Part shown: piece by piece, positions 51,256-64,000 of the stretch
Position numbering within the stretch: the stretch's first letter is position 1
Layout of the letters: each line of letters opens with the position of its first letter
Source of the DNA: Gemmatimonadetes bacterium bin94
GTDB taxonomy: Bacteria; Gemmatimonadota; Gemmatimonadetes; Longimicrobiales; Gaopeijiaceae
Reading direction: 5' to 3'
NCBI GenBank assembly: GCA_002238865.1
Contig: MPNE01000005.1
Span: 62,001-126,000 of the forward strand
Length of the DNA stretch: 64,000 bases
Program-made: the position numbers and the translations under genes
Notes under the pieces: model-generated
What the model was told of the DNA's origin: nothing
The model's database searches: none
Seen by the model: only the letters and a program-made list of their open reading frames with translations

Positions 51256-53040
51256 ATGGTGCGCCCCCGGCGCTCGCGTCGTTACCCCGGTCTGCTGGCC
51301 GCTCTGTGGCTCATTGCCGCCGTCCCCGACAGCGCCGATGGCCAGGTGGTCCGTGGCAGACTCGTTGACGCTGCCGGAGGAAGCGGGATAGGCGGTGCGA
51401 TGGTGAGTCTGGTGAACCGCAGTGGTCGCGGGATCGGACAGACACTCACCCGAAGCAGCGGCCTTTTCCAACTCCAGGCACCCGGTCCCGGCGAGTACCG
51501 TCTCAGGGCCGACCGGATCGGCTACGCCTCGACCCTCTCCGACTTCTTCGGCGTGGTCGCCACGGACACCATGACAATCGAGCTCGTAGCACGCATCGAG
51601 CCGGTCTCCCTGCAGGGAATCGAAGCGGAGGCGGGTCGTCAGTGCCGCGTGCGTCCGGACGAGGGTCTGGCCGTTGCTCGCGTGTGGGAGGAGGCCCGCA
51701 AAGCCCTCGCGGCTGCCGCGTGGACCCAGGAGCGGGGACTGTACCGTTACGAGATGCTCCGGATCAAGCGCCGGCTGGATGACAGGGGCCGCAGGGTAGA
51801 GCGGGAAGACCGCGACTACGTGCAGGTGTCAGCCCCGACGCCCTACGCTTCCCGTCCCGCGGATTCACTGCTGGCCGAGGGATTTGCGCGGTTGTCGGCC
51901 GAGGGCTCCGTGTTCTGGGGACCGGATGCCGGCGTGCTTCTCTCCGACTCGTTCCTGGACACGCACTGTTTTCGAATCCGGCCGGGTGAGCGCCAGCGCG
52001 GGGACCGGATCGGCCTGGAGTTTGAGCCGTTGCCCGATCGCGAGGTCGCGGAGATCACCGGCACGATGTGGCTGGACCCGGTCTCGGCGCAGTTGGAGCG
52101 GCTCGATTTCCGCTACGTCAACCTCGACGCTTCCTCGCGGCTCATGGAAGCCTCTCCCGGAGGCAGAGTGGAATTCAGGACGTTGCCCAACGGCACGTGG
52201 ATCGTGCCCTCGTGGCACCTTCGCATGTTTCGTCCGGGTGAAGCCCTCGACCCCGTTACCGGTCGTCCCACAGTTGCCCTCTCGGCCATCATCATGGAAC
52301 ATGGCGAGGTGCTGCGGGTTCACGCCGGACAGGACATCGTCTTCGAGGGTGACCGTGGAGGCCGCATTGCCGGCACGGTTTTCGACACTCTGAACGTTGG
52401 GTTGCCGGGCGCCAGGGTGTTCCTCAACGGTGAGGGGGCCGAGGTGGTCACGGACGCCGACGGCGGATTCGAACTCACCCACCTTGGGCCGTGGACGTAC
52501 ACGGTCCACTACACGCATCCCTATCTGGAACAGCTTTGGTATCAGCCCGGACCGGTCGAGGTCGAGGTGGATCCGGCGCGTGCGAACCCTGTCCGGCTGG
52601 ACTTCGAGGCGCCTTCGCTCAATGAGGTGCTCGACGACGTCTGCGACGGTGCTCGGCAGCCCGAGCCGACCCCGCTTGCGCGAGGCGGGATCGCCTCGTC
52701 TCCGGGCATTCTCACCGTGGCCGTGACCGATGCGGAGGGAACCCCCGCAGCGGATGCGACTGTTCTGATCATGACGGCCGCTCTCCGGGCGGGTGGCCCT
52801 GGGGACCGCCGCGCCAGGATCCGGGGAGAGACCAGCGCTTCGGGACTCTATCGAATATGCTGGTTGCCGGTGGATCTTCCGCTGGAGGTGGTGGTACTTA
52901 ACCGCACCGAGAAGCTCGACCGCCGCGCATTTGAGGATGCACGCGAGCTGGCCGATCTCTTCCCCGGCAGAGTTCAGGAGATCACCATCGCTCGCGAAGC
53001 GCCGTACAGAACCCTCCTGCTGCGAATCGAGGCCGGATAG
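51256..53040 (+). CDS. Exported carboxypeptidase-regulatory-domain protein, four-cysteine family member B
   Basis: A 594-residue secreted protein closely related to the one at 33655-35469: collinear without a gap for about 460 residues, with 40 of 50 residues identical in positions 121-170 (counted by eye). Signal peptide to about DGQ30; CarboxypepD_reg domain about 31-120; central domain with the PDAGVLLSDSFLDTHCFR motif (about 223-240); two further regulatory-like domains (about 370-450, 485-590). Conserved cysteines 130, 238, 463 and 535. ATG 51256 has GGAGGG upstream. The stop TAG shares its last base with the GTG of the next gene. Confidence 0.85.
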   Translation: MVRPRRSRRYPGLLAALWLIAAVPDSADGQVVRGRLVDAAGGSGIGGAMVSLVNRSGRGIGQTLTRSSGLFQLQAPGPGEYRLRADRIGYASTLSDFFGVVATDTMTIELVARIEPVSLQGIEAEAGRQCRVRPDEGLAVARVWEEARKALAAAAWTQERGLYRYEMLRIKRRLDDRGRRVEREDRDYVQVSAPTPYASRPADSLLAEGFARLSAEGSVFWGPDAGVLLSDSFLDTHCFRIRPGERQRGDRIGLEFEPLPDREVAEITGTMWLDPVSAQLERLDFRYVNLDASSRLMEASPGGRVEFRTLPNGTWIVPSWHLRMFRPGEALDPVTGRPTVALSAIIMEHGEVLRVHAGQDIVFEGDRGGRIAGTVFDTLNVGLPGARVFLNGEGAEVVTDADGGFELTHLGPWTYTVHYTHPYLEQLWYQPGPVEVEVDPARANPVRLDFEAPSLNEVLDDVCDGARQPEPTPLARGGIASSPGILTVAVTDAEGTPAADATVLIMTAALRAGGPGDRRARIRGETSASGLYRICWLPVDLPLEVVVLNRTEKLDRRAFEDARELADLFPGRVQEITIAREAPYRTLLLRIEAG

Positions 53041-54716
53041 TGCGAGGCGTGCCGACCTTGATCCTGTTTGCCGCGAGTGCCCTCGTCGTCCAACAGGGCG
53101 GTGCGCAGGTCATCGACGGTGTCGTCGTCGACTCGGCTTCGCGAGTTCCGGTCGCCGGGGCGCTCGTGTCGCTGGTCGACAACGGCGGCCGCGACCTTCA
53201 GCGAGTGATGGTGGATGCCGACGGATCGTTTCGATTCATCGTCGCCGGATCGCCCGGAACCTACACCCTGCGGGCGGAACGTCTCGGGATGGCCACCGAA
53301 ACGGTGGGAGGGCTCGATCCGGGGCCGGTCGACACGGTCACGGTTCGGATCGCGCTCCGGCACCGGCCAATCGCCCTGACTGGCATCGAAGCCTCGGGAG
53401 AAGGGCGGTGCGAGCTGCGGGCCGCGGTCGGCGACGCGACCCACCGCGTGTGGGAGGGGGCCCGCCAGGCGCTAATGGCGGTGGATGCCTCGGGTTCCGC
53501 CGGCCGGTATTCCTACGATCTCGAGAGACATGTTCGGGAGCTTGAACCGGGTTCCCTGAAGATCCGCACCGATTCGCGCACGCGTACCCGATCAATGAAC
53601 CAGCGCCCGATCAGGAGCCATCCGGTGGAGTCCCTCATCTCGGGCGGCTGGGTTGTCGGCGACAGCGATGGCTATCGCTATTTTGCACCGGACGCGCACG
53701 CGCTGCTTTCCGACCCGTTCCTTGCCACTCACTGCCTGCGGCTTCGCGGCTACGACGAGGCGCGCCCCGGGCTGGTCGGCCTGGAGTTTCGCCCCATTCG
53801 CTCCCAACCGAATCGCACCGACATCGAGGGCGTCCTTTGGTTGTCGCGAGAGACCGGCGAACTGGAATGGCTCGATTTTGGCTACCGCGGCCTTCCGGGG
53901 ATCGCGGGAGAACATCAAAGTGATCAGATCGGTGGCCGCGTGGAGTTCGTCGGCGTTCCCGACGGCGGCTGGATCGTCTCGAAGTGGCACATCCGGATGC
54001 CGCTGATGGCCGAAGAGCGCGACCGGTTCTCCGGTGGCTTGCGCGCGAGACTGGTTGGAATTGCAGAGGAAGGGGGGCGGGTGGTGCGGGCACTGCGAAG
54101 GGCTACCGGACAGGTGGCCTATGCCGAGCTGGGAGGGGCGGTGGTCGGGGAGGTAGCCGGAGGTGTCGCCGGGGACCTGGTCGCTGTCGTGGGCGTCGGC
54201 CTCGAGGCGGTGGTGGACGAGGGCGGAGGTTTTGCCATTGGCGGCCTCCCGGAGGGAAGCTATGGCCTTGCGCACGTTCGCCCTTCTCTCCTGGGGTTGG
54301 ATCGCGAGTACGTCGGGGCCGAGGCCAGTGTTGTGGCCGGTGACACTGCGACGGTGCGTATCGAGGCCCCTTCGACGGACGAGGTGCTGGCCGCGGCGTG
54401 CCGGGTGCCCTCGTGGAACCCGGCAACGGGGGTGTTGCTGGGCGAAGTCGCCGATGAGGGCGGTCGCACGGTGGAGGGCATCGGGGTGGTAGCCGAGTGG
54501 GTTGTGGTGAGCGACATCGCCGCCAGACTGAGCGCGGAGGCCCGCAGGGAGGAGACCATGACCAGTCGGCTGGGCGAGTTCCGCATCTGCGGTGTGCCGG
54601 TGGATCATCGCACGATTGCCGTGACCGCCGGAACAGGAACCGAGAACGCGTCGCAAGAGGTGGTGCTGTCGCCGGAGGAGCCGGTTGGCAGGGTGTCGCT
54701 CACGCTCCGGAGGTAG
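53040..54716 (+). CDS. Exported carboxypeptidase-regulatory-domain protein, four-cysteine family member C
   Basis: A 558-residue secreted protein, a more divergent third member. Signal peptide to about GAQ23; CarboxypepD_reg domain about 24-110; central domain with PDAHALLSDPFLATHCLR (217-234), GLEFRPIRSQPNRTDIEG and LEWLDFGYR, all with counterparts in the other two proteins; regulatory-like domains about 365-445 and 465-558. Cysteines 124, 232, 454 and 517 match those of A and B. Residues 330-410 are unusually Gly/Val-rich (VVGEVAGGVAGDLVAVVGVG). The GTG start overlaps the preceding stop by one base, so B and C form one operon. Confidence 0.82.
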   Translation: MRGVPTLILFAASALVVQQGGAQVIDGVVVDSASRVPVAGALVSLVDNGGRDLQRVMVDADGSFRFIVAGSPGTYTLRAERLGMATETVGGLDPGPVDTVTVRIALRHRPIALTGIEASGEGRCELRAAVGDATHRVWEGARQALMAVDASGSAGRYSYDLERHVRELEPGSLKIRTDSRTRTRSMNQRPIRSHPVESLISGGWVVGDSDGYRYFAPDAHALLSDPFLATHCLRLRGYDEARPGLVGLEFRPIRSQPNRTDIEGVLWLSRETGELEWLDFGYRGLPGIAGEHQSDQIGGRVEFVGVPDGGWIVSKWHIRMPLMAEERDRFSGGLRARLVGIAEEGGRVVRALRRATGQVAYAELGGAVVGEVAGGVAGDLVAVVGVGLEAVVDEGGGFAIGGLPEGSYGLAHVRPSLLGLDREYVGAEASVVAGDTATVRIEAPSTDEVLAAACRVPSWNPATGVLLGEVADEGGRTVEGIGVVAEWVVVSDIAARLSAEARREETMTSRLGEFRICGVPVDHRTIAVTAGTGTENASQEVVLSPEEPVGRVSLTLRR

Positions 54717-54868: not shown

Positions 54869-55978
54869 ATGGCGCGCGACCCGCGCACTCCCCGTCGGCC
54901 CTGTCTCGCGGCCCTTCCCGACTCCGCGATCGCCAGGTCGCTGCGCCGTCTTGCCGCGGTGGCCGCTGCCCTGGCCGCGCTGCCGATCCTGTCGCCGGCC
55001 CGGGACGCCAGCGCCCAGGACGCGGCCCGGCCGAGCCAGGTCACCATCGCGGGCACCGTCGTCGACGCGGTCACCGGACAGCCCATCAGCGGGGTGGTGG
55101 TGGAAGTGCGCGGAGTGGGGTTCCGGCTTCAGACCGACACCGATGGCGGGTTCACCCTGTCCCGGATTCCGGTCGGCGACTACCAGCTGGAGCTTACCCA
55201 CCCGGGCTATCATCCCGTCGTCGGGGACTTCACGGTCATGCGCTCCGGGGAGTTTGTGACAACGATGGAGCCGGTGTTCACCGGGTCGGACGACCTTCTG
55301 ACGGGGATCGTCGGCGTGGTCAGCGACGGCGCTGACGGGAGGCCGATCGGTGGCGTCACCGTCCGCTCCATCAACGCCCGCCGGGGAATGCTCACCGATC
55401 CCCGCGGCCGGTTCAGCCTGACGGAACTTTCCCCCGGGTTGCACGTCGCCGAATTCGTGCAGCTGGGGTACGTGAGCCGCCGGGACTCGATACAGGTGAT
55501 GCCCGGACGCGTCACCAACGTGCGGGTGTCGCTCTCGGTCGATCCCGTGCAGATGGATCCGATCGAGGTCACCGTGGAACGACGAGAGATCGCGCTGCAG
55601 GAGGTGGGGTTCTATACGCGTGAGAACGAGGGGTTCGGCGACTTCATCGACCGCGAACAGATCGAGCAGCGGCCTCCCGGCCAGATGTCCGACCTGTTCA
55701 CCACACTCCCGGGCGTGGATACGAGGCCCGACCCGGGGAACCCGTTCGAAAAGCATATCATGCTCCGCGGGGGCCGCAGCGAAAACTGCTTCCCCCGGGT
55801 CATCATGGACGGAGTGGTGGTGGGCCGGGGCGGGGACGAGCCCGCCATGCTGGACCGCCTGCTCGAACCCTCGGCGGTCGCGGGTGTGGAGGTGTACGTG
55901 AGCCAGTCGGGGGTGCCGGCCCAGTACATGGGCACCGGTGTTTCCTGCGGGTTGATCATTATCTGGACGCGGCGTTGA
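54869..55978 (+). CDS. CarboxypepD_reg plus TonB-plug protein without a beta-barrel
   Basis: A 369-residue exported protein. After an Arg-rich signal peptide (cleavage near ASAQD, ~50) come two carboxypeptidase-regulatory-like domains (about 60-145 and 150-235) and a plug-type domain (about 235-365): PGQMSDLFTTLPGVDTRPD, IMLRGGRSENCFPRVIMDGV, VAGVEVYVSQSGVPAQYMG, ending at IIIWTRR, the last plug strand. No barrel follows; the gene stops cleanly. ATG 54869 has GGAGG nine bases upstream. It follows the four-cysteine genes by ~150 nt, echoing the pairing of member A with a full TonB receptor at 31471. Confidence 0.85.
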   Translation: MARDPRTPRRPCLAALPDSAIARSLRRLAAVAAALAALPILSPARDASAQDAARPSQVTIAGTVVDAVTGQPISGVVVEVRGVGFRLQTDTDGGFTLSRIPVGDYQLELTHPGYHPVVGDFTVMRSGEFVTTMEPVFTGSDDLLTGIVGVVSDGADGRPIGGVTVRSINARRGMLTDPRGRFSLTELSPGLHVAEFVQLGYVSRRDSIQVMPGRVTNVRVSLSVDPVQMDPIEVTVERREIALQEVGFYTRENEGFGDFIDREQIEQRPPGQMSDLFTTLPGVDTRPDPGNPFEKHIMLRGGRSENCFPRVIMDGVVVGRGGDEPAMLDRLLEPSAVAGVEVYVSQSGVPAQYMGTGVSCGLIIIWTRR

Positions 55979-56049
55979 TTGCCGTTTGAGTCTGCCCGGG
56001 CGTTCCCGGTGCGGAGTGCGAGAGGCCAGGAGAGCGGAGGGCAGTGACG

Positions 56050-59000
56050 ATGAGGAGCATGCACGCGGTTTGCCGGGGTGGCGGCGAGTGGCGGTCCGCG
56101 TCCCGCGCTTCGGGGGCGCTGCGATGGGACTGGGTACGGTGGCGCCCGGGATTGGTGCGTCTCTGTTCCGTCGCGACCGCGGCGGCTGCGATGATCGCGT
56201 CGCCCCCCGGTTTCGCGGCGGTCGTGGGAATCCCGGCGGTCGCGTCGGCCCAGACGGCCGAGCAGAACGACAGCTCCGCCCAGGCGGCGCGGCGTGCGAA
56301 CGGGCTCCCGCTCATCCCGGCCCGGACTCTCGATTTCACGACGAACGAAGGCACCTGGATCTCGCTCGACCTGTCTCCCGATGGGGAGACGATCCTCTTC
56401 GAACTGCTCGGGGATCTGTACACGTTGCCGGTGTCCGGGGGCAGCGCGACTCGCGTCACCAGTGGGCAGGGGTACGACATGCAGCCGCGCTTCTCGCCCG
56501 ACGGTGGCGAAATCGTGTTCGTGAGCGACCGCGACGGTTCCGAAAACGTCTGGATCGCGAAGGCCGACGGCACGGATCCACGCCAGCTCACCGACACCGA
56601 GCGGGAGAACTACATGTCCCCGGTGTGGACGCCGGACGGCGAGTACGTCATGACGGGCAAGGGAACACAGCTCTGGCTCTACCACGAGGACGGGGGCTCG
56701 GGCGTGCAGGTCACGGGGCACCGGGAGGAGGGTGCTCCCGCGCCGCCCGCTCACCTGGGGGCCGCGTTCGGGTCCGATCCGCGCTATCTCTGGGTCAACG
56801 TGCGCGGCAACCTCGGGGGTGGCTTCCCGGCCGGGGACGCGGCCGCGGGCCTGGCCGACGTTGGCGCGTATTTCGGCCCCGACCACTTCGGCCCGAACCG
56901 CGGTCCCCGCAGTTCGGCCCGACAGGTCGGCCAGTTCCAGATCGCGATGATCGATCGCGAGACGGGGCGCACCTTCGTCCGCACCCACGAGCACGAGGGG
57001 GCATTCCGTCCCATGCCGAGTCCCGACGGCCGCTGGCTGGTGTACGCGACGCGGTACGATGCGCGTGAAGCCCTCAAGCTGCGCGACATCGCGAGCGGCG
57101 AAGAAAGCTGGCTCGTCATGGATGTGCAGCGGGACGAGTCGCAAGGCGGCGGCACGCGCGACCGGGATGTCTACCCGGGCTCCGCCTGGACGCCTGACTC
57201 GCAGGCTTTGATAACCAGCTACGGCGGCAGGATCATGCGCGTCGAGGTGCCCTCCGGCAACGCCACCGAGATCCCCTTCACGGCCCACATCCAACAAGAA
57301 GTGGGTCCGCGTGTCAAGTTCGACTATCCCGTCAACGATTCCACGCTCACGGTCTCGCAGATCCGCGGCGCGCGCCCGTCCCCCGACGGCAGCCACCTCG
57401 CATTCACCGCGCTGGATCGCCTCTGGATCGCTGCGCTTCCCGATCCGTCCGGGACGCAGACCGAGGGCTATCCGGTCATCCGCGATGCCCGCCGGCTGAC
57501 CTCCTCCACCGACGTCGAGCACGGTCCGGCCTGGTCCCCGGACGGCCGCCATATCGCCTATGCCACCTGGAACGATTCGGCCGGCGGCGACATCTGGCGG
57601 GTCCGGGCCGACGGCAACCACGACCCGGAGCGTCTGACACCGGCGTCGGCATTCTTCGACCGGGTCGCCTACAACGGCGATGGATCGCGCATCCTGGCCG
57701 TGCGCGGCTCGAAGATGCACCGGATGCGCACGCTGGAGGACTTCGGACAGCACAGCCCCGCCGCGGAGCTGGAGTACGTGTGGCTGCCGGCGGAGGGTGG
57801 GGAGCCGGATCGGATAACCTGGGTCGGGCGGGGTACCACGCAGCAGGGCCGCAACGCCCCGCACCCCGGACCGGATCCGGACCGCGTGTACATCTGGGCG
57901 GGAACCGATGGCCTGCTGTCGATGCGCTATGACGGCACCGACGTTCGCACGGTCGTCAAGGTCACCGCGCCTGCCCGCCCCGGACCGGGAACGCCGGGGG
58001 CGCCGGACGAGGTGGTTCTCTCCCCCGACGGCAAGCGCGCGGTGGTACGTGCGAACCGCAACGTCTTCACGATTACGGTGCCCCCGGCGGGCGGCGAGGC
58101 CCCCACGGTGTCCGTCGCGGCGTCCTCGTCGATGCCCACGCGGCGGCTCACGCGCATCGGGGGCAACTTCGCGGGGTGGACGCCGGACGGTGCCGGCGCC
58201 TTCTACTCGATCGGGCGCAGCTTCTTCCTGTACGACGTCGCGCTTGGCGACTCCCTGGTCGCCGATTCGGTGGCGGCCGCCCGCGCCGAGGCGGAGACGG
58301 AGGAGTCGGGGGACGAAGCCGCGGACTCCGCCGACGTGATCGAGGAGGAGGCCGAGGGCGACGAGGACGAGGGCGGCCCCGTATACGAGGCCGCGCGGTT
58401 CGACATCGAGATCACGGTGCCGAAGGACAAGCCTCGCGGCACTGTGGTTCTGAGCGGTGCCCGCCTCATCACCATGCGCGGCGACGAGGTCATCCCCCGG
58501 GGCGACATCGTGGTGCGAGACAACCGCATCGCCGCGGTGGGGGCTACCGGGACCGTGGCGATACCCGGGGACGCGGAGGTGCGCGACATGTCCGGCAAGA
58601 CGATCATGCCGGGCCTGGTGGATATCCACGCGCACACCTGGGTCGCGTGGGGCGTCCACCGAAGCCAGGTCTCCCAGTTTCTGGCGCAGCTCGCCTACGG
58701 AGTGACCACACAGCGCGACCCGCAGACGTCGGCAGAGGATATCGTGACCTACAGCGACCTCATGGAGACCGGCGAGCTGATCGGGCCCCGCCTCTACTCG
58801 ACCGGCCCGGGCGTGTTCGGCGCCGATCGGATCTCCAGCCTCGACGACGCGCGCGACGTGCTGCGCCGCTACTCCGACCACTTCAACACGCTTACGATCA
58901 AGCAGTATCTGGCAGGCGACCGGAAGGTGCGGCAGTGGGTGATCATGGCCGCCCGCGAGCTGGGGCTCACGCCGACAACCGAGGGCGGCTCCAACTTCAC

Positions 59001-59688
59001 CATGAACCTCACGCTGGCGCAGGACGGCTATGCGGGGCTGGAGCATTCGCTGCCCATCAGTCCGTTCTACCGGGATGTCGTCCAGCTGGGCGCATTCAGC
59101 GGGATGGTCTACACGCCCACGCTGATCGTCGCGTACGGCGGCCCGTCAGGCCGGCAGTACTACCTGACCCGCACGAACATGGACGAGGTCGAGCGGCTCC
59201 GCTTCTTCACCCCGCACGACGAACTCGACAAGTGGAAGACCACGACCTGGTTCCGGGACGACCAGTACCCGCACTTCCTGCACGCCGAGCAGATCGTGAA
59301 GTGGATGGATGCAGGGGGACAGGCGGGACTGGGCTCGCACGGGGAGGTGCAGGGGCTGGGCACGCACTGGGAGCTGTGGATGATGGCGTCGGGAGGCATG
59401 GACAACCACGACGCCCTGCGCATGGCCACGCTCATGAGCGCCGATGCGATCGGCCTCGCCGGCGACATCGGATCGCTGGAGGCGGGGAAGCTGGCCGACC
59501 TGCAGGTGCTCGGTTCCAATCCGCTGGACGACCTGGAAAACACTGTTGATATCGATTTCGTCATGAAAAACGGCCGGCTATACGACGCGGCGAATCTGAC
59601 CGAGCTGTGGCCCCGTGAGCGGCCGCTGCCCACACAGTGGTGGTGGCGGGTGGAGCCGCCCGACGTGCGCGAGGAGCGCGGCCGCTGA
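56050..59688 (+). CDS. TolB-propeller/amidohydrolase fusion protein
   Basis: A 1212-residue exported protein. After an Arg/Trp-rich leader and hydrophobic segment (to about VASAQT, ~66), a WD40/TolB-like propeller region (about 90-745, many SPDGxxIxFxSDR repeats) is followed by an acidic linker (EEEAEGDEDEGG) and an imidazolonepropionase-like amidohydrolase domain (about 800-1190): VDIHAHTW (HxH metal site), TIKQYLAGDR (candidate Lys ligand), GLEHSLPISP and GSHGEVQGLGTHWEL. Metal hydrolase, substrate unknown. ATG 56050 fits GGAGGG better than GTG 56044. Paralogue of the convergent gene at 60332. Confidence 0.9.
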   Translation: MRSMHAVCRGGGEWRSASRASGALRWDWVRWRPGLVRLCSVATAAAAMIASPPGFAAVVGIPAVASAQTAEQNDSSAQAARRANGLPLIPARTLDFTTNEGTWISLDLSPDGETILFELLGDLYTLPVSGGSATRVTSGQGYDMQPRFSPDGGEIVFVSDRDGSENVWIAKADGTDPRQLTDTERENYMSPVWTPDGEYVMTGKGTQLWLYHEDGGSGVQVTGHREEGAPAPPAHLGAAFGSDPRYLWVNVRGNLGGGFPAGDAAAGLADVGAYFGPDHFGPNRGPRSSARQVGQFQIAMIDRETGRTFVRTHEHEGAFRPMPSPDGRWLVYATRYDAREALKLRDIASGEESWLVMDVQRDESQGGGTRDRDVYPGSAWTPDSQALITSYGGRIMRVEVPSGNATEIPFTAHIQQEVGPRVKFDYPVNDSTLTVSQIRGARPSPDGSHLAFTALDRLWIAALPDPSGTQTEGYPVIRDARRLTSSTDVEHGPAWSPDGRHIAYATWNDSAGGDIWRVRADGNHDPERLTPASAFFDRVAYNGDGSRILAVRGSKMHRMRTLEDFGQHSPAAELEYVWLPAEGGEPDRITWVGRGTTQQGRNAPHPGPDPDRVYIWAGTDGLLSMRYDGTDVRTVVKVTAPARPGPGTPGAPDEVVLSPDGKRAVVRANRNVFTITVPPAGGEAPTVSVAASSSMPTRRLTRIGGNFAGWTPDGAGAFYSIGRSFFLYDVALGDSLVADSVAAARAEAETEESGDEAADSADVIEEEAEGDEDEGGPVYEAARFDIEITVPKDKPRGTVVLSGARLITMRGDEVIPRGDIVVRDNRIAAVGATGTVAIPGDAEVRDMSGKTIMPGLVDIHAHTWVAWGVHRSQVSQFLAQLAYGVTTQRDPQTSAEDIVTYSDLMETGELIGPRLYSTGPGVFGADRISSLDDARDVLRRYSDHFNTLTIKQYLAGDRKVRQWVIMAARELGLTPTTEGGSNFTMNLTLAQDGYAGLEHSLPISPFYRDVVQLGAFSGMVYTPTLIVAYGGPSGRQYYLTRTNMDEVERLRFFTPHDELDKWKTTTWFRDDQYPHFLHAEQIVKWMDAGGQAGLGSHGEVQGLGTHWELWMMASGGMDNHDALRMATLMSADAIGLAGDIGSLEAGKLADLQVLGSNPLDDLENTVDIDFVMKNGRLYDAANLTELWPRERPLPTQWWWRVEPPDVREERGR

Positions 59689-60331: not shown

Positions 60332-63300
60332 CTACCTCCGGCGAATCCCGGCTGCGGTGGTCCCCGGGTCCGACTCGGCGGGCCTCCTCCGCTCCAGCGT
60401 TCGCTCCTCGGGGTACACCTCGTCGAGCGTCATGCCGTCGTAGAGGCGTCCGTCCTTCATCACATACCGGATGTCGACCGAATTGCGGAGCTCGTCCAGC
60501 GGGTTGGAATTCAGGATGACGATGTCGGCGAACTTGTCCTTCTCGATGCTGCCGATCTGCTTGCCGAATCCGATCGCCTCGGCGCCCAGGATCGTGGCCG
60601 CCCGCAGCATGTCGTGATTCGACGCGCCGCCCGCGGCCATGGCCCACAGCTCCCAGTGGAAGCCCAGGCCCTGAATCTGTCCGTGGCTTCCAACGCCCAT
60701 GCGGGCGTCGCCTTCGAGCATCTTCTTCACGAATTCGCCGTGGCGCGGGAAGACGTGCTCCTCTTTCAGGAACCAGCCCACCGGTCCGGGACTGCCCCCG
60801 GAACCCGAACCGCGCCGCCGCGTCCGCGCGTCAATGTTGGCTCCGGGGACGAACATGTTCAGCTTGGGGTCGTCGTGGGCGTTCTCGGTGGCGTAGAAGT
60901 AGTTCTCGCCGAAGGGGCCGCCGTACGAGACCAGCAGGGTGGGCGTGTTCGTCGTCTCCGATTCCTTGAAGAGTTCGACGACATCGGAGTACATCGGCGC
61001 GATGGGGATGTTGTGCTCGATCCCCGGGTATCCGTCGATCGCGTGGGTCATGTCGATCTTGTAGTCGAGCCCGCCCTCGGTGGTCGGCATCAGCTCGAGC
61101 TCGCGCGCGGCCTGGATGATCCACTGGCGCTGCTGGCGGTTCCCGCTCATGTACATCTTGAGCGTCTTGGTGTCGTAGTACTCTGCGTACCTCCTCAGGA
61201 TGCTCTTCGCGTGATCCGCGTTTCGGATGTTCTCGCCGTTGAAGACGCCGGGCCCCGTCGAGTAGATCCGCGGACCGGTCATTCCGCCGGTCAGGACGCG
61301 GTCGGTGTAGCTGAGGATGTCCGTGAACGCGGTCTGCGGGTCGCGCGTGGTCGTGACCCCGTAGGACAGCGTTGCCAGGTACTGCCACACCTCCTGCGGA
61401 TGGATCTCCGGGACCAGCCACATGGAATGGTAGTGGGTGTCGATGTAGCCCGGCACCAGCGTCTTGCCGGAGACGTCGATCACCTGTGCGCTGTCGGGTA
61501 TCTCGACCGAATCGGCGATGCCGACTTCGACGATCCTGTTGTCCCTGACCAGCACCACCCCGTTGTCGATCACGTGCGGCGCTCCGGTGGTGTCGGACGG
61601 ATTGTCCGCCATCGTGATGATGCGGCCGCCCCGGAGCGCCACCAGGCCGCGGGGGATGTCGCGCGGCAGCTCCACCTCGATCTTGCGCTCGTGCGCCTCA
61701 TAGGCATCGGTCGTGTCGGCCAGGATCTCCTTGTCGCCGCCCCGGACCGCGCTGGCCTTTGCGGCCACCTCCTCCGCCGCCCCCCGGATCGAGTCGGCGC
61801 GCGCCATGAGCGAATCGGCGACGACCTGGACCGAGTCGGCCACGAGCCGCGTGATCTCGTCGTCGAGTTCCTCCGGGACCTCCTCGTCGGCGTTCTTCAC
61901 GCTGTCCGCCTCGGCGCGCCTGTCCTTCAGCGTGTCCGAAATGGCCATGGCCCGCGCCCGGATCAGCGCCCGGGCGTGTGCGGTCTCCTCTTCCTCCGCC
62001 TCTTCGGCTTCCACGTGGTCGAGGTCGTAGGTGAACAGCACGTTGCCCATCGCCCAGTGCAGCGCCGAGCCGTCGGGTGACCACGCGGGGAACTCGCCGC
62101 CGACATCGGTGAGCTTCCGCACCGGAACCGGCGAGGCTCCCAGGTTGGTGAGCATGATGTTCGGGGGCGTGGCCCCGACCTCCGCCAGATCGACGATGTA
62201 GATGTCGTTGCCAAACTGGACGAAGGCGCGGTCGCCCCCGGGGGACAGGACGATGAGACCCGCGGGCTGCGGCAGTCCGGGCTCGGTCGGCGGCTCGGGG
62301 TCGGTCGGGTCGGGGCCCTTGCGCCACGGGTAGACCCGCCTCGGGAGGTATTCCCACTCGTTCGGGTGGGGGCTCGCGATTCCGGCGACGCCCTGGCGCC
62401 CGCGCACCACCAGGTGACGCTTGACGTCCGTGCCGTCCCAGCGGAAGGAGACCAATCCCTCGACCGGGCTGTAGGCGTAGATCCGGTCGGAATCGTCCGC
62501 GGCGAAGTGCGCGACGTCGCGTGCCCCGGTCGGCGAGATCACCGTCGCCTCCGCGGGTGCGGCGGCGGTTGCCGGGACCCAGACGAACTCGGCGCCCATG
62601 GGACCGAAGAAGATGTCCGACGCTTCCATCAGATCACGGGCCGCACCGCGCGACGCGACAATCCGCTCGCCGTTCGGGGACCAGGCCACGTTGTAGTACA
62701 TGGCCGCGGTGCGGGTGAGTTGCGTGGGCGTGCCGCCCGAAGACGGCACGTTCATGATGTGGCCGCCGTTGGTGTCGTCCCACGTCACATAGGCGATCGA
62801 GGACCCGTCGGGCGACCACTGCGGGTGGAACTCGCCGACTTCCGCCTCGGTGAGGCGCGTTGCCTCTCCCTCGGGGAGATCCCGCACCCAGAGACGGTCG
62901 AACGCCGTGAATACGACGCGGTCGCCACCGGGTGACACGGCGGGGCTGCGGATCTGACGGGCGGTCACCATCGCGGTCGTGTCGATCTGGTAGTCGAACT
63001 TGACCGAAGGCCCGATGTTCAGCTCTACGTCGACCTCGAACGGAATCTCGGTGGCCTCGCTGCCGTCCATCGGGACGTTCCAGATCCTGCCGCCGTACGA
63101 GACGACGATCGCCGAACCGTCAGGGAGGAAGGCATAGCCCGGGTACACGTCGACGGGAGCGCGCGATTCCTGCTCGTCGCGCTGGACCGGATACGCCAGC
63201 CACTCCTCGTCACCCGTCGTCAGGTTGCGCTTCCGCAACCCGGTGTCTGCGTTGTAGCGCGACGCGTACACCAGCCAATTGCCGTCGGGCGAGATTGCGG

Positions 63301-64000
63301 GGCGCATCGCGGAGCCGTACCGGCTGGTCATGAGTGTGCTGGCGCCGGTCTCGCGGTCGTAGCGGTACACCTGGTAGCGGGGAAGACGGGCGTTGTACTC
63401 CCAATCCCCGAAGGACTGCGCATACCAGATGTGTCGTCCGTCGGGGCTGAAGGCGGCTCCTATGCGCTTGATGCCCCCGAACAGGGCCGCGAAGATCGGC
63501 GATGTGGAAGCACCGGGGATCGTGATCGGCGACGAGCGCTCCGCGTTGTACATGTACAGGTTGGCCGCGCCGCCCAGACCGCCCGAACGGCTGACGACGA
63601 TGTATTCGCCGTCGGGCACCCACTCGGGCGACAGGAAGAGGTTGTTGTTGCCGCGAGATACCTGCGTCGTGTCCGTCTTGTCCAGACGCATCGTCCACAG
63701 GTTGTCGCCCCCGCTGCGGTCGGAGACGAACGCCACCGACTCGCCGTCGGGGCTGAAGCGCGGCTGCACCTCGAAGGCCATTCCGGTTAGCAGTGGAGAC
63801 GCCTTGCCCCCGGTGATCGGCATCGTGTAGAGATCGCCGAGCAGATCGAAGACGATCGTCTGGCCATCAGGGCTGATGTCGAGCGAGATCCACGTGCCCT
63901 CCGTCGCCGTAAACTCGGCCGTTCGGGCGCTGCGGAGCGGGAGGGGATCCTGGCGCGGTCCGCCGGGTCTGGGCGGTTGCGCCGCGAGAGGGGCGACCAC
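60332..64000 (-). CDS. TolB-propeller/amidohydrolase fusion protein, N-terminus beyond window
   Basis: At least 1222 residues, open through the window end, so the signal peptide and true start are missing. It shares the architecture of the plus-strand gene at 56050: propeller (EGTWISLDISPDGQTIVFDLLG near the N-terminus, then many WSPDGS repeats), a long acidic and helical linker (EAEEAEEEETAHARALIRARA), and an amidohydrolase domain with DTHYHSMW, TLKMYMSGNR, GIEHNIPIAP and GSHGQIQGLGFHWEL. One insertion of ~20 Gly/Ser/Pro/Arg residues (RTRRRGSGSGGSPGP) is unique to this copy. Likely exported metal hydrolase of unknown substrate. Confidence 0.92.
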   Translation of the reverse strand: MVAPLAAQPPRPGGPRQDPLPLRSARTAEFTATEGTWISLDISPDGQTIVFDLLGDLYTMPITGGKASPLLTGMAFEVQPRFSPDGESVAFVSDRSGGDNLWTMRLDKTDTTQVSRGNNNLFLSPEWVPDGEYIVVSRSGGLGGAANLYMYNAERSSPITIPGASTSPIFAALFGGIKRIGAAFSPDGRHIWYAQSFGDWEYNARLPRYQVYRYDRETGASTLMTSRYGSAMRPAISPDGNWLVYASRYNADTGLRKRNLTTGDEEWLAYPVQRDEQESRAPVDVYPGYAFLPDGSAIVVSYGGRIWNVPMDGSEATEIPFEVDVELNIGPSVKFDYQIDTTAMVTARQIRSPAVSPGGDRVVFTAFDRLWVRDLPEGEATRLTEAEVGEFHPQWSPDGSSIAYVTWDDTNGGHIMNVPSSGGTPTQLTRTAAMYYNVAWSPNGERIVASRGAARDLMEASDIFFGPMGAEFVWVPATAAAPAEATVISPTGARDVAHFAADDSDRIYAYSPVEGLVSFRWDGTDVKRHLVVRGRQGVAGIASPHPNEWEYLPRRVYPWRKGPDPTDPEPPTEPGLPQPAGLIVLSPGGDRAFVQFGNDIYIVDLAEVGATPPNIMLTNLGASPVPVRKLTDVGGEFPAWSPDGSALHWAMGNVLFTYDLDHVEAEEAEEEETAHARALIRARAMAISDTLKDRRAEADSVKNADEEVPEELDDEITRLVADSVQVVADSLMARADSIRGAAEEVAAKASAVRGGDKEILADTTDAYEAHERKIEVELPRDIPRGLVALRGGRIITMADNPSDTTGAPHVIDNGVVLVRDNRIVEVGIADSVEIPDSAQVIDVSGKTLVPGYIDTHYHSMWLVPEIHPQEVWQYLATLSYGVTTTRDPQTAFTDILSYTDRVLTGGMTGPRIYSTGPGVFNGENIRNADHAKSILRRYAEYYDTKTLKMYMSGNRQQRQWIIQAARELELMPTTEGGLDYKIDMTHAIDGYPGIEHNIPIAPMYSDVVELFKESETTNTPTLLVSYGGPFGENYFYATENAHDDPKLNMFVPGANIDARTRRRGSGSGGSPGPVGWFLKEEHVFPRHGEFVKKMLEGDARMGVGSHGQIQGLGFHWELWAMAAGGASNHDMLRAATILGAEAIGFGKQIGSIEKDKFADIVILNSNPLDELRNSVDIRYVMKDGRLYDGMTLDEVYPEERTLERRRPAESDPGTTAAGIRRR

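Follow-up and report, generated by a model that had tools for sequence, protein, structure and literature searches.

A barrel-less TonB plug protein from a large secreted family of Gemmatimonadota, a putative periplasmic accessory of SusC-SusD import

The gene described here encodes a secreted protein of 369 residues (P0001), intact in the 64-kb window (i.e., the whole stretch of DNA that was analysed), whose chain stops directly after a TonB plug and lacks the C-terminal 22-strand beta-barrel. It is a member of a large secreted family of Gemmatimonadota, in which one or two carboxypeptidase-D-like domains are followed by a TonB-box-like linker and a complete, terminal plug. For want of a barrel P0001 falls outside the TonB-dependent receptors, although it may work like the N-terminal half of one. 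Our tentative reading, to which we assign a probability of roughly 0.45, is that the family represents the N-terminal module of SusC in a soluble form without a barrel, pinned by a disulfide, which would serve as a periplasmic accessory of TonB-dependent SusC-SusD import by engaging either TonB or SusC.

Protein architecture and structural matches

The open reading frame begins with an ATG at 54869, preceded by a GGAGG ribosome-binding site, and is closed by a TGA at 55976-55978 (Table 1). Two CarboxypepD_reg stretches were recognized with Pfam, together with a Plug domain (PF07715, residues 260-346, 34.1 bits at a cut-off of 23.9), and an NTE-type domain (PF13715), a feature of the SusC subfamily, is present ahead of the TonB-box-like segment. 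The protein ends in IWTRR and has no final aromatic-ending beta-strand, while many full receptors of the same genome end in F, Y, or W. No barrel-encoding frame was found just past the stop when the reading frames 3' of 55978 were inspected.

Table 1 Features of P0001, its adjacent genes, and SusD-linked relatives
Feature	Position	Strand	Evidence or remark
Upstream neighbour, CarboxypepD_reg protein	53040..54716	+	In 6 other genomes its relatives are joined to the plug in one protein
CDS, 369-aa barrel-less plug protein P0001	54869..55978	+	ORF, Pfam; GGAGG RBS upstream
Signal peptide, residues 1-49, predicted cleavage ASA/QD (ARDASA/QD)	54869..55015	+	Sequence reading; hydrophobic helix 21-36 in the model
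First carboxypeptidase-D-like (NTE-type) domain, residues 59-125	55043..55243	+	Pfam PF13620, AlphaFold2, VIA-align
Second carboxypeptidase-D-like domain, residues 146-222	55304..55534	+	Pfam, AlphaFold2, VIA-align
TonB-box-like linker segment MDPIEVTV, residues 229-236	55553..55576	+	Conserved L229 and V234; alignment to Bt1763 VDEVVV
Plug domain, residues 241-369, CGLIIIWTRR at the stop	55589..55975	+	Pfam PF07715; plug-only AlphaFold2 model; TBDT plugs in PDB
Cys307, first conserved plug cysteine	55787..55789	+	Family alignment
Cys360, second conserved plug cysteine, putative disulfide with Cys307	55946..55948	+	Family alignment
Downstream neighbour, PD40 + amidohydrolase, 66 bp on	56044..59688	+	Same placement in most same-genus relatives
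SusD-linked plug loci L093, L100, L102, L104, L113, L132, L133, L143, L144, L149			

The AlphaFold2 model of P0001 consists of two beta-sandwiches, a linker, and the plug, with a mean pLDDT of 87.5 and values of 95 and above over most of the plug. Beta-sandwich domains filled the hits of a fold search made with the complete model, so the plug was additionally modelled alone (pLDDT 91.3, pTM 0.85). Among the PDB matches listed for this plug-only model all were TonB-dependent transporters, including BtuB, FhuA, FecA, FepA, and RagA, the best one listed being the SusC protein Bt1763 (6z9a_B; Z 10.7, rmsd 3.1, 107 residues). The second carboxypeptidase-D-like domain was matched to the NTE of SusCdex (9hfj) with a VIA-align Z of 12.5. 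The best PDB match by sequence was XusA (9gbc, E 8e-24), extending over one carboxypeptidase-D domain, the TonB-box region, and the plug; unlike P0001, this TonB-linked receptor of Bacteroides is complete, with a barrel and a surface lipoprotein partner, XusB.

The order of NTE, putative TonB box, and plug in P0001 is that of the SusC-type transporters (e.g., Bt1763, BT2264, RagA), to which the best structural match listed for the plug belongs, and some relatives of P0001 have a SusD neighbour. It differs from them in having neither the 22-strand barrel nor, in the window, a SusD neighbour, in carrying two NTE-type domains and a conserved pair of plug cysteines, and in stopping at the WTR end, with no run-on into a barrel.

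Size, spread, and constant length of the family

The source genome, a 4.42-Mb draft estimated to be 97.5% complete, holds five full-length copies of the family, P0001 included. When this genome and its relatives were searched with a query devoid of the end motif, and therefore yielding an unbiased set, matches at E 1e-20 or better were obtained in 40 of 59 genomes, and in all 34 loci read from this search the stop lay 0-32 residues past the end of the match. A contig scan with P0001 alone as query gave no match, whereas a profile using the CG..WTR motif worked; it was run over the genomes of 84,980 species and recovered 80 loci, a set biased to the family by that motif, with titles of Gemmatimonadota or lower groups within it except for one 'Bacterium HR33'. 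The plug is followed by only 0-31 residues in each of the 114 distinct relatives examined. In a sample of 150 Gemmatimonadota genomes drawn across the phylum (completeness at least 90%), a plug-only profile (E 1e-12 or better) detected 1-18 copies per genome in 117, and tblastn against plasmids produced matches over the plug from Gemmatirosa only. P0001 itself shows the complete family signature, i.e., a C-terminal plug, a cysteine before the DG strand, another before the last strand, and the CG[LV]I..WTR end. Literature searches on plug-only proteins and on Gemmatimonadota plugs returned nothing relevant, and no description of such a family was found in them.

These data agree in part with the original prediction, made from the letters and their open reading frames. 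The signal peptide, the two regulatory-like domains, and the complete plug ending in IIIWTRR before a normal stop, as it had described them, are borne out by Pfam, the sequence, and AlphaFold2. The barrel-less plug, which it judged unable to act as a transporter by itself, is real, all 114 distinct relatives ending after the plug as well. It had proposed to check the length of homologues, which proved to be conserved, the plug being the end of the protein in every close relative examined. Of the two findings it had named as speaking against it, a frameshift just after 55978 is not there, the next gene being the PD40-amidohydrolase, and none of the close homologues is a full receptor. The phylum-wide, multicopy nature of the family and its conserved cysteine pair go beyond what had been predicted.

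Plug cysteines

In the family alignment (95 rows), Cys360, Gly361, Trp366, and Glu341 are invariant and Cys307 is found in 99% of the rows; exactly two plug cysteines are present in 88 of the 95 rows, and four in another six. Among the 114 distinct sequences, Cys360 is kept without exception. Cys307 is kept in about 97%, and the three paralogues in a single locus (L107) that lack it each have a cysteine earlier in the same loop. The plug cysteines are absent from 34 of the 35 full receptors of the same genome. From this pattern of conservation, Cys307 and Cys360 probably form a disulfide, which would replace the support normally given to the plug by the barrel. P0001 is probably a soluble periplasmic protein.

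As cited in PMC11658791, the isolated plug of FepA (Usher et al. 2001) behaved as unfolded, so a free plug would need help in folding. That plug was also without its barrel; however, in this account it was an unfolded laboratory construct, while the plug of P0001 is natural and has the cysteine pair. Under the pull of TonB, the plug of BtuB unfolds in its first half (residues 23-73) and stays folded in its second (PMC5413942). When aligned to BtuB, Cys307 and Cys360 both fall in the second half, and because they lie in the half that resists the pull there, the half adjoining the TonB box would stay pullable in P0001.

TonB-box-like linker

Apart from the pattern L-x-x-[ILV]-x-V-x-[AVG], the linker that joins the second sandwich to the plug is variable. 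The entropies of L229 and V234, both part of this pattern, are 0.60 and 0.58 bits in the family alignment, the neighbouring positions having mostly 2-3.5; the pLDDT here is 72-79 in the plug-only model. A profile alignment pairs this segment with VDEVVV of Bt1763, the deletion or alanine substitution of which caused a growth defect on levan like that seen after the loss of SusD (PMC7782687). Six matches to TonB_C (PF03544) indicate that TonB homologues are present in the genome of P0001. We infer from the linker sequence that P0001 may bind TonB.

Other plug sequences without a barrel

A further non-receptor protein of the same genome contains barrel-less plug sequence, namely an M56 peptidase of the BlaR1 type whose C-terminus is formed by the second half of a TonB plug (L059:2458-3750; G000:C80, plug 122041-122211). 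It differs from P0001 in having this second half only, no TonB box and no cysteines, and in being an integral-membrane peptidase. A 182-aa frame likewise ends in a half plug (PVIYVDGIRV...AGVIRIFTRN) and has no barrel (L062; G000:C22:169978-170157). A 252-aa protein with CarboxypepD_reg and plug but neither barrel nor cysteine pair (L051:1202-1957; G000:C26:6124-6420) may represent an independent instance or else a truncated receptor, and a 284-aa CarboxypepD_reg and plug-like protein with three plug cysteines (L053; G000:C68:171598-171897) adjoins a family member. In the relatives at L046 and L109, a hydrophobic helix after the plug at the C-terminus would anchor it in a membrane.

Genomic context

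A PD40-amidohydrolase gene on the same strand is a steady neighbour of the plug gene within the genus of P0001 (about 12 loci), and it also flanks plug copies in two other lineages (L112, L118). The window contains two convergent genes of this type (56044-59688 and 60332-64000, about 1,200 aa each), and several relatives of the same genus have a similar convergent pair next to their plug gene. On the other side, 51256-53040 and 53040-54716 code for tandem CarboxypepD_reg proteins with a long middle domain without a Pfam match, relatives of which occur in 35 of 40 related genomes, mostly in several copies. In six genomes, a long CarboxypepD_reg protein resembling the products of these two upstream genes has the plug as its C-terminal end. 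A conserved operon with the upstream gene was considered and rejected, as the adjacency is not kept among the relatives retrieved, even if the two are fused in these six distant ones.

Neither in the window nor in its genus was a SusC-SusD pair found next to the plug gene. In other genera, ten loci (Table 1) have the plug gene downstream of a SusD-like gene on the same strand, either directly or with one gene between them, and in most of these a SusC that has both plug and barrel precedes the SusD. Six of the ten SusDs are positive for PF07980, and the remaining four were matched by a profile built solely from confirmed SusDs, the loci under test being left out of it. These copies are a minority (10 of the 66 loci with enough upstream DNA). 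Across the eight genomes searched, PF07980 occurs at a density of about 1.5 per Mb, and by our estimate for the 81 family ORFs that have 2.5 kb of sequence upstream, around 0.1-0.3 same-strand SusD neighbours within 1.7 kb would be expected by chance; the linkage observed in ten loci is far above this. Five of the ten loci belong to one clade, and the SusD-linkage label changes six times on a weakly resolved tree, with only two of the changes forced by well-supported branches.

Proposed function and alternative explanations

As an accessory of SusC-SusD import, P0001 would use its retained TonB box to bind the C-terminal domain of TonB, or would bind SusC at its periplasmic face, or both; in this way it could modulate, hand over, or time the engagement of TonB while imported material is processed. 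The constant architecture, the prevalence of the family, the cysteines, the plug fold, the TonB-box-like segment, the TonB homologues of the genome, and the SusC-SusD context all argue for such a role. On the other hand, the TonB-box-like segment could be a relic, there is no SusC-SusD beside the gene in the window or the genus, and the SusD-linked copies are few, with five of them in one clade. Of the two possibilities raised by the original prediction, a periplasmic factor linked to TonB or to a receptor is the likelier, given the kept TonB-box-like linker and the relatives located beside SusC-SusD, with TonB binding itself being presumed.

It is also quite possible, while short of probable, that the fold of the plug has been taken over as a general periplasmic binding or scaffold domain (for a ligand, an enzyme, or another domain), stabilised by the disulfide and making no contact with TonB, so that the TonB-box-like strand would be a relic or purely structural. 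Such recruitment fits with the six genomes in which the plug is fused to long CarboxypepD_reg proteins lacking a transporter part, with the steady PD40-amidohydrolase neighbour within the genus, with the half-plug tails on the M56 peptidase and the 182-aa protein of the same genome, and with the C-terminal hydrophobic helix of two relatives, but it sits poorly with a motif conserved at the TonB-box position of an otherwise variable linker and with the copies that travel with SusC-SusD.

The two carboxypeptidase-D domains of P0001 could be those of an NTE-type signalling protein with the plug as its sensor, which would influence gene expression or the assembly of SusC, and removal of the NTE from Bt1763 was dominant-negative in a manner unexplained by transport (PMC7782687); yet no anti-sigma, sigma, or assembly gene recurs among the identified neighbours (part of the neighbours being annotated), and we consider a sensor improbable.

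A plug that enters in trans a barrel from another gene is more doubtful still. Plugs can leave the barrel of Bt1763 in vitro (PMC7782687), but all barrels found in the genome with PF00593, PF14905, and PF25183 have a plug in the same ORF. The search for a barrel-only partner, as proposed in the original prediction, gave none in the genome for these three families, and its suggestion of a plug completed by a barrel elsewhere is unsupported. One candidate (C52:91129, 798 aa) had a barrel match without a Pfam plug hit; on reading it has a plug-like region of its own, so it is not a plug-less barrel. Finally, P0001 could be an assembly error or a full receptor that has decayed or been truncated or frameshifted, for which nothing more speaks than full receptors being the usual setting of a plug. 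This is ruled out by the clean stop, by an unrelated gene starting 66 bp further on, and by the conserved length of the family, in which 114 relatives share this end.

Implications

The family is currently described by domain names only, and its reading as a periplasmic accessory of SusC-SusD import would supply a function. A more far-reaching proposal, which we regard as unlikely at present, is that Gemmatimonadota evolved freely soluble plugs, pinned by a disulfide and equipped with a working TonB box, of which a genome may carry up to 18 copies. As channel-less, TonB-driven periplasmic proteins, these would pull on TonB, compete for it, or share it out among the SusC-SusD importers. The plug has so far been thought to work only inside its barrel, and such proteins, if real, would be a second use of the TonB-plug couple. 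A natural, phylum-wide family of free plugs, in which a TonB-box-like motif is kept and a cysteine pair added, makes the action of TonB on a pore-less plug directly testable and offers soluble material for plug-TonB biophysics.
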